Assembly: GCA_946406435.1 (NCBI GenBank)
Contig: CAMJKP010000003.1
Coordinates: 27,568 to 91,567 of the forward strand
DNA length: 64,000 nucleotides
Source of the DNA: an uncultured Prevotellaceae bacterium
GTDB lineage: Bacteria; Bacteroidota; Bacteroidia; Bacteroidales; Bacteroidaceae
Direction: 5' to 3'
How positions within the stretch are numbered: position 1 is the stretch's first letter; every line of letters begins with the position of its first letter. The notes under the pieces are model-generated. The model was not told where the DNA came from. It ran no database searches and saw nothing but the letters and a program-made list of their open reading frames with translations. Shown here piece by piece: positions 47,187 to 48,456 of the stretch. The position numbers and the translations under genes were made by a program.

Positions 47187-47400
47187 TTTTCGCCCCCCGG
47201 AGTGACCACCAACACCCATCACCTAACACCCAACACCAGATTGACAAGTGCAAAGTTACGTAGATATCTTGTCACGACCAAATATTTTTCGAGAATTCGT
47301 ATATAAAAAATTCCCAAAAATCCCGTAACTAATTGTATATCTAACGCTTACCTGACTTTTATATACAACCTTTAGCTGACTATAACGAAGTTTCAATGTC

Positions 47401-47442
47401 TACACAATCTACATAATCTACATATTTTTTAGTAACACCCCC
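47401..47442 (+). repeat. 42-nt direct repeat, left copy
   Basis: TACACAATCTACATAATCTACATATTTTTTAGTAACACCCCC, identical to 50468-50509. Confidence 0.92.
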
Positions 47443-47568
47443 TTTCCCCTAGCATTATAGTCTATAATAATTAATTATTAATTAATTATTATAGAAGTTG
47501 GAAGCTGAAAAAAGGGTATTGTTTATAAATATGTAGATTATGTAGTAAATGTTACATTTAGGTTTTTA

Positions 47569-47599
47569 ATGAAAACTTGGCTATACGCAATTAAAATGC
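47569..47599 (+). repeat. 31-nt direct repeat, left copy (overlaps 3' end of Nudix gene)
   Basis: ATGAAAACTTGGCTATACGCAATTAAAATGC, 29/31 to 50995-51025. Confidence 0.85.
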
Positions 47600-48268
47600 A
47601 CTTCTGTTTTCTATCTGTTCACGATACTTGTTTTCATCAAACGTGAAAAGAGTTCCGGGGCGACCATTATTACGGACTTGCTGATTTGTAGGTATAATAT
47701 AGCCAAGTGCCATCATCTTCTTGTGGAAATTACGGCGGTCGAATGTCTGCCCAAGTACGACTTCATAGATTGTCTGCAACTGGGTCATGGTAAATGTCTT
47801 GTTCAGAAGACGGAAAGCCAAAGGCTCGTATGTGATTTTCCAACGTAGCTTCTCTAATGCCACACGAATAATCTCCTTATGATCAAAAGCGAGTTCTGGC
47901 AGTTCAGACACAGGAAACCATTGTGCCTTTGCTGCATCATCACCAGCTATAACCTCGTATTTCTCCTGACGAACAAATGCCAGAAAAGCGATAGTCATCA
48001 CTCTTTCACGAGGATCACGATTAACTCCCGTGAATGCCTGAAGCTGCTCTATGTAGATGTCCTTTACTCCCGTTTCTTCCTGAAGCTCGCGCAAAGCACC
48101 TTGTTCGGCTGTTTCATCCATATTCATGAAACCACCAGGCAAAGCCCATGCTCCCTTAAAAGGATCTATTCCCCTTTCAATCAAAAGGAGGTTGAGGGCA
48201 TTTCCGTCAAAACCAAATACTACACAGTCGGTAGTAACCGCAGGATGTGGATATTTGTATGTGTACAT
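47591..48268 (-). CDS. Nudix hydrolase-domain transcriptional regulator, NrtR/AraR-like (Nudix + C-terminal winged helix)
   Basis: Intact Nudix box GFMNMDETAEQGALRELQEETGV; C-terminal FTMTQLQTIYEVVLGQTFDRRNFHKKMMALGYIIPTNQQVRNNGRPGTLFTF winged-helix pattern. Confidence 0.88.
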   Translation of the reverse strand: MYTYKYPHPAVTTDCVVFGFDGNALNLLLIERGIDPFKGAWALPGGFMNMDETAEQGALRELQEETGVKDIYIEQLQAFTGVNRDPRERVMTIAFLAFVRQEKYEVIAGDDAAKAQWFPVSELPELAFDHKEIIRVALEKLRWKITYEPLAFRLLNKTFTMTQLQTIYEVVLGQTFDRRNFHKKMMALGYIIPTNQQVRNNGRPGTLFTFDENKYREQIENRSAF

Positions 48269-48309
48269 TACAAATTACGTGATTGGCTTTAGTTTCCTAA
48301 TCACGCTGC

Positions 48310-48317
48310 AAAATTAC
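48310..48317 (-). promoter_or_regulatory. -7 element TAATTTTG for Nudix regulator gene (minus strand)
   Basis: CAAAATTA on plus strand with CAA at 48337-48339 (19-bp spacing). Confidence 0.5.
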
Positions 48318-48345
48318 TACTTTTTTCCCGAAAAACAACACAAAT

Positions 48346-48362
48346 GCGTAGTTTTTACGCAA
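48346..48362. promoter_or_regulatory. Candidate operator site 1
   Basis: TGCGTA-GTTTT-TACGCA, perfect 6-5-6 inverted repeat. Confidence 0.6.
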
Positions 48363-48388
48363 TCAAATGTTAAAAAAATAGCAAGTTT

Positions 48389-48405
48389 GTGTATTTTTCA
48401 CGCAA
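48389..48405. promoter_or_regulatory. Candidate operator site 2
   Basis: TGTGTA-TTTTT-CACGCA, same 6-5-6 architecture. Confidence 0.5.
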
Positions 48406-48433
48406 TTTATTTGGCGGATTCATGAGAAATTAT

Positions 48434-48441
48434 TACTTTTG
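48434..48441 (+). promoter_or_regulatory. -7 element TACTTTTG for the vWA gene
   Basis: TAnnTTTG match about 60 nt upstream of ATG 48501. Confidence 0.55.
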
Positions 48442-48456
48442 CGTCAGAATTACACA
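48440..48456. promoter_or_regulatory. Candidate operator site 3, overlapping -7 element and predicted start of transcription
   Basis: TGCGTC-AGAAT-TACACA, fits TGYGT-N7-ACRCA. Confidence 0.5.

Follow-up and report, generated by a model that had tools for sequence, protein, structure and literature searches.

The NrtR repressors of nicotinamide adenine dinucleotide (NAD) metabolism are autoregulated, and ADP-ribose antagonises DNA binding in several of the members studied (PMC6800001; PMC4666351). The Nudix motif is degenerate both in these regulators and in AraR (PMC4666351; PMC6800001). In the crystal of BtAraR with DNA, the operator is GTGT-N7-ACAC; K179 contacts the first G, N181 the A and K184 the T, and R180 intercalates between the second and third base pair (PMC4666351, Table 2). 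In section 3.8 of their paper, Iyer et al. (2022; PMC9503650) described ARG-centred systems whose transcription factors are of the Nudix or WYL type, and proposed that a Nudix-helix-turn-helix (HTH) factor represses the operon by default until ADP-ribose is released; that section gives no operator or promoter layout. Such systems for reversing ADP-ribosylation are marked by an ADP-ribosylglycohydrolase beside the regulator, a linked vWA protein or other predicted chaperone and the lack of a linked ADP-ribosyltransferase, and would act against phage-directed ADP-ribosylation. Here we analyse a divergent locus from an uncultured Prevotellaceae bacterium, in which a minus-strand gene for a Nudix regulator is parted from a plus-strand gene pair, for a vWA protein and an ADP-ribosylglycohydrolase (ARH), by a region bearing three TGYGT-N7-ACRCA sites. 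The locus lies in a stretch of 64,000 nucleotides (assembly GCA_946406435.1, contig CAMJKP010000003.1, positions 27,568 to 91,567), referred to below as the window. The sites are present and conserved, occupy fixed positions on promoters of the Bacteroidota type and accompany one clade of regulators. From these sequence comparisons we put at roughly 85% the probability that they are operators of the adjacent NrtR-family protein, which would act as a homodimer, regulate its own gene, repress the vWA-A1S_2505/ARH genes and be induced by ADP-ribose or a derivative.

Sites in the window and the genome

The pattern TGYGT-N7-ACRCA was scanned against the window and against the whole 3.37-Mb assembly. 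The window contains three matches, all exact, and no others; shuffled windows gave a mean of 0.15, and none of 100 reached three. Site 1 (TGCGTAGTTTTTACGCA) occupies positions 48345..48361, site 2 (TGTGTATTTTTCACGCA) positions 48388..48404 and site 3 (TGCGTCAGAATTACACA) positions 48440..48456. A sequence-only reading of the window had proposed these three sites. Their presence and fit to the pattern held, as did the coordinates of site 3, but those of sites 1 and 2 were each one too high. Site 1, which had been called a perfect palindrome, is one in its 6-base-pair (bp) arms (TGCGTA/TACGCA) but not in its 5-bp core, GTTTT, which is asymmetric.

Genome-wide there are six matches, the three window sites included. 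Two of the remaining three lie within long open reading frames and one in a ACACATAC simple repeat, so that occurrence elsewhere at chance frequency, which would have told against the sequence-only reading, was not seen: the other matches are few, and none is in a promoter-like setting. Because the reversed pattern gave 11 genome matches against these six, the motif is not over-represented genome-wide in general; it is concentrated at the Nudix/vWA promoter region. A search allowing one mismatch was uninformative (208 matches, against 278 for the reversed control). The exact scan found no regulon outside the Nudix/vWA promoter region, since the other exact matches are in reading frames or a simple repeat and contig C96, which carries an A1S_2505 paralogue, has no site anywhere; the assembly consists of 127 contigs with a completeness of 81%, and unlinked regulon members may have escaped detection.

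Conservation in relatives

To find relatives of the Nudix protein, 400 genomes from the family were searched and the loci fetched; for 78 distinct orthologues the 400 bp upstream were examined. The sequence-only reading had looked to phylogenetic footprinting, and the motif is indeed kept upstream of the orthologous loci. The 78 regions hold 63 exact sites, spread over 43 regions, where dinucleotide shuffles gave a mean of 0.1 and the reversed pattern none; 59 regions have a site with at most one mismatch. Half-site spacings of 3–6 and 8–11 gave between 0 and 2 matches each, and the motif is therefore essentially one of spacing 7. When the set was thinned to below 75% protein identity, an exact site was found in 12 of 25 regions and one with at most one mismatch in 17. 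Five orthologues without a full-quality proximal site (L083, L089, L093, L095 and L113) have fitting sites 0.6–3.2 kb further upstream, as would fit a Nudix gene lying inside an operon. Among named genomes the pattern reaches Prevotella, Bacteroides, Parabacteroides, Alistipes, Muribaculaceae and one metagenome-assembled genome of the Chitinophagales.

The individual window sites can also be followed. Sites 1 and 2 are kept in the divergent promoters of genomes G090 and G373, and site 2 also in G031 and G001. Site 3 is identical base for base in G001 and has one change in G031, a different genus. In both of these genomes the vWA operon lies apart from the Nudix gene; site 3 and its partner are kept at the vWA promoter while neighbouring bases have drifted, and the remote Nudix gene bears its own copy of the site.

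A chance origin of the three sites was considered and is ruled out by the window shuffles, the genome count and the orthologue footprint.

Some further observations concern the distribution of the locus. The nearest relatives of the regulator, 84–87% identical (L115 and L116, from G090 and G373), sit in other genera of the family, and the divergent operon of G090 begins with an ARH gene instead of a vWA gene; together these suggest lateral spread. Contigs classed as viral in IMG/VR (L247-L250, L261, L263, L269 and L270) carry either the regulator with sites or a Nudix gene lacking the winged helix beside ARH, vWA and A1S_2505 genes, and parts of the Nudix/ARH/vWA modules may travel on prophages. 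The single-contig genome G082 has two regulator paralogues (L077 and L109), each with an exact AT-cored site 50–120 bp upstream; its other exact genome matches have GC-richer cores.

Position of the sites on the promoters

The vWA promoter was recognised as a TTTG-N20-TACTTTTG pattern of the Bacteroidota type on the plus strand, with the TTTG -33 element at 48410..48413 and the TACTTTTG -7 element at 48434..48441, 20 bp after it. The Nudix promoter has a TAATTTTG -7 element, likewise a pattern match, at 48309..48316 on the minus strand (48316-48309 as read). Site 3 starts within the vWA -7 element, on its final two bases, which confirms the overlap claimed for it in the sequence-only reading, and would be the downstream operator of that promoter. 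Site 2, the predicted upstream operator, starts 46 bp before the start of the same element. The placement of site 1 at the Nudix promoter was likewise correct: this predicted operator starts 45 bp upstream of TAATTTTG.

The same arrangement is seen next to orthologues from many gut bacteria. Of the 60 orthologous promoters that bear a site, 45 carry one starting exactly 6 (25) or 9 (20) positions downstream of the start of a TAnnTTTG element, and the partner operator is mostly 52 or 55 bp upstream of it. The commonest layouts relative to the -7 element are -46/+6 (14) and -46/+9 (10), and upstream operators range from -45 to -48 across orthologues. In the window, the vWA promoter has the exact -46/+6 layout and the Nudix promoter the -45 copy only. 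The simplest reading of a promoter held between two operators, one of which covers the start region, is repression.

The regulator and its proposed operator

The regulator gene (47591..48268, minus strand) encodes 225 amino acids with NUDIX (1.6e-22) and NrtR_WHD (7.2e-20) domains; both Pfam families, PF00293 and PF21906, score above cut-off, and the protein is the proposed reader of the sites. Its AlphaFold model (mean predicted local distance difference test score, pLDDT, 87) is closest to BtAraR (TM-score 0.80), followed by an Enterococcus Nudix protein and SoNrtR, and aligns full length with AraR and NrtR structures. By sequence the best relative in the PDB is likewise BtAraR (5bs6). The Nudix box, GX5EX7REUXEEXGU, is complete at residues 46–68 (48065..48133, minus strand), as judged from the sequence and the alignment, and RE..EE is retained in 74 of the 78 orthologues. 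A strict Nudix motif was passed by 62 of 78 orthologues and failed by all 25 AraR-type paralogues.

The recognition helix DRRNFHKK (residues 177–184; 47717..47740, minus strand) was aligned with D178-R185 of BtAraR (5bs6) and with the orthologues. In an alignment of 45 proteins, D177, R178, N180 and K184 are invariant, and the counterparts of the BtAraR contact residues N181 and K184 are invariant in this clade. The clade's motif has the AraR core, but C or T is tolerated at the base that AraR touches solely by van der Waals contact. Proteins with a DRRNF helix pair with TGYGT (of 282 half-sites, 162 have C at position 3 and 233 an outer T). DKRNF proteins with an intact Nudix box, from many phyla, pair with AGTGT/ACACT, and here position 3 is C in 2 and the outer base A in 38 of 48 half-sites. 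Helices with R and with K at this residue thus go with different operator motifs. Two rows fall outside the main clade, one from the Chitinophagales (L238, on a long branch) and one gammaproteobacterial (L232).

An approximately unbiased (AU) test of the DRRNF rows as one clade was not used, as it was ill-posed, with site-less rows on the other side. Some orthologues have a DRSNF (L070, L080, L084, L125 and L126) or DRANF (L102) helix, with S or A at the position of the intercalating Arg180 of BtAraR. In their sites the core is kept on one side, and the outer half on the opposite side is altered (GGTGTAAAATTTACCAA is an example), which hints that helix and operator are linked in another respect as well.

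The full motif was found upstream of none of 15 Nudix homologues from the same group without the winged helix (<200 amino acids) and none of 25 AraR-type paralogues. The AraR-type genes are a weak control, araR being often internal to its operon; the homologues lacking the winged helix provide a better control.

An ARH, A1S_2505 or vWA relative lies within the fetched flank of 49 of the 78 orthologues. Among 110 operon partner proteins scanned, ARH (24) and A1S_2505 (18) were commonest, followed by DUF1810, DSP-type phosphatases, Gp30.3-like proteins and NADAR. By analogy with NrtR relatives (PMC6800001; PMC4666351) and from this gene content, the effector would be ADP-ribose or a derivative.

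Probable target genes and flanking repeats

The first gene of the window operon (48501..49526, plus strand) encodes a 341-amino-acid protein with a vWA domain (Pfam VWA, 3.6e-09) and a C-terminal A1S_2505 domain (NCBIfam NF049995, 2e-36). The second (49582..50373, plus strand) encodes an ARH/DraG-like protein of 263 amino acids (Pfam ADP_ribosyl_GH, 7.4e-33) with ARH3-type relatives in the PDB. A profile search of the PDB gave no match for the A1S_2505 domain, and a fold search with the whole protein returned mostly vWA matches; a weak match to TIGR02452 (E 0.0092) hints at a macro/PARG-like fold. No ADP-ribosyltransferase was found among six neighbouring proteins in a Pfam scan, which was not extended more widely.

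The whole Nudix/vWA/ARH locus is bracketed by a 46-nucleotide direct repeat, 98% identical (47397-47442 and 50464-50509), a pattern that resembles the edges of a cassette, either mobile or duplicated. Its 38-nucleotide core has no other copy in the genome, with up to three mismatches allowed. A second direct repeat, of 37 nucleotides and 89% identity, lies at the end of the Nudix gene (47563-47599) and about 600 bp past the ARH gene (50989-51025). Downstream of the Nudix gene there is also an imperfect inverted repeat with 37-nucleotide arms, 81% identical (47409-47445/47509-47545), made from the sequence of the flanking direct repeat.

Discussion

The sequence-only reading took the sites for operators of the adjacent Nudix regulator. 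That proposal is supported, on comparative grounds, by the footprint, the promoter geometry, the comparison with homologues lacking a winged helix, the AraR–DNA complex and the R/K difference in motif; the geometry, the absence of the motif where the DNA-binding domain is missing, the complex and the motif difference point to the Nudix regulator itself as the probable reader. In the mechanism that we propose, a ligand-free dimer on site 2, just upstream of the -33 element, and another on site 3, over the end of the -7 element and the start region, would clamp the vWA-A1S_2505/ARH promoter and block RNA polymerase, and a dimer on site 1 would damp the regulator's own divergent promoter. ADP-ribose or a derivative, accumulating from NAD cleavage or from removed ADP-ribosyl groups, would bind the Nudix domain and shift the winged helices out of register, as arabinose does in AraR. 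Both divergent transcripts would then rise, and ARH and the vWA/A1S_2505 protein would handle ADP-ribosylated targets. The intact Nudix box, although no proof of activity, also raises the possibility that the regulator hydrolyses its own inducer and thereby resets the switch.

Several observations weigh against this interpretation. In about a quarter of the orthologues the 400 bp upstream contain no site even when one mismatch is allowed; among them are L048, L064 and L061, which have the standard helix but show no site in any of the fetched DNA. The +6 sites share their first two bases with the -7 element, and conservation there is partly promoter-derived; in the -46 sites, which are free of this overlap, T1 and A17 are each found in 40 of 50. 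The R/K state changes at least three times in a tree of 178 proteins, but only two independent pairs are well supported and, although both are concordant and so suggestive, they cannot reach significance. Lastly, the Nudix promoter carries the upstream operator only, both in the window and in G090, G373, G001 and G031. With that operator alone at the window Nudix promoter, the case for strong autorepression is weaker than the case for repression at the vWA operon.

This last arrangement would also fit a regulator that bound the sites but activated transcription, at least at its own promoter, where the -45 operator stands alone just upstream of the -33 element in the usual position for an activator. 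In most promoters, however, that of vWA included, a downstream operator overlaps the -7/start region, and the relatives studied so far repress (PMC4666351; PMC6800001), so that we consider activation unlikely. The sites might instead be read mainly by another NrtR-family paralogue of the same cell, of the AraR/XylR type, in which case the locus would answer to a pentose. The operator in the BtAraR crystal has nearly the same core, with the same half-site and spacing, and the genome has, at the end of contig C60, one further NrtR-type gene, whose product bears a DKRNF helix. Against this, K-type helices go with a position-3 T and an outer A, whereas the window sites have C and an outer T; the sites follow the adjacent Nudix clade across genera and lie on the promoter of its gene; the locus has no linked pentose genes; and the AraR-type genes lacked the full motif in all 25 cases. 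Such a reader is improbable.

The sites could also serve a global factor, for instance one resembling Crp or Fnr, their closeness to the Nudix gene being incidental. Crp-like boxes also begin with TGTG, similar to the half-site, but with six matches in 3.37 Mb the motif is not dispersed over the genome; it is also confined to spacing 7 and missing next to Nudix homologues that have no winged helix. We regard this explanation as very improbable indeed. Operators of the adjacent Nudix regulator, acting chiefly in repression, thus remain the preferred interpretation. An extended form of it remains tentative, its chances falling somewhat short of even: in this form the repressor would also be an active pyrophosphatase for ADP-ribose or its derivative, destroying the inducer released by the glycohydrolase in a self-resetting switch, the two-operator clamp would be a portable Bacteroidota module, and a K-to-R change in the helix would turn AGTGT into TGYGT.

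Nudix-regulated ARH/vWA systems were already predicted in 2022, in the section of PMC9503650 cited above. The present analysis adds the operator, the geometry of the promoter and a clade of regulators whose Nudix catalytic box is largely intact. For operons that reverse ADP-ribosylation, a widespread class known so far from prediction and possibly with an anti-phage role, it provides an operator and a promoter layout that are open to testing. The operator can be used to find regulons where regulator and targets are unlinked, and a single DNA fragment with a single protein would suffice for a direct test of the inducer. With its largely intact box the clade stands apart from the NrtR and AraR regulators of PMC4666351 and PMC6800001, which raises the question of an enzyme acting as its own reset.

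Comparison with known systems

The closest described protein is BtAraR (BT0354; PDB 5bs6/5dd4/5deq), the Bacteroides arabinose repressor of the NrtR family. The two share the two-domain fold (TM-score 0.80), the operator core and spacing GTGT-N7-ACAC, the helix residues D178, R180, N181 and K184 (BtAraR numbering) and tandem operators. They differ in that the Nudix box is intact here and broken in AraR, that R replaces K179, and that the half-site is TGYGT with C favoured at position 3. Compared with Bacteroidetes AraR in general, the linked genes concern ADP-ribose rather than arabinose, and the helix is DRRNF rather than DKRNF.

With SoNrtR (PDB 3gz5/3gz6/3gz8), MsNrtR and the other NrtR regulators of NAD metabolism, the window protein shares a Nudix domain joined to an NrtR winged helix. 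In those proteins the Nudix motif is impaired and the genes controlled are for NAD synthesis or salvage, whereas here the box is complete and vWA-A1S_2505 and ARH genes are linked; their operators also differ from the window sites, as in Mycobacterium (GTTTTCGA-N7-TCGAAAAC). The gene content matches the ARG-centred systems as section 3.8 of PMC9503650 presents them, with ARH, a Nudix-HTH negative regulator and a vWA protein as neighbours. The taxa named there are actinobacteria, planctomycetes and proteobacteria, whereas the present loci are from Bacteroidota and their vWA domain is fused to A1S_2505. Judged by their genes, they look like members of the predicted ARG-centred kind in Bacteroidota.
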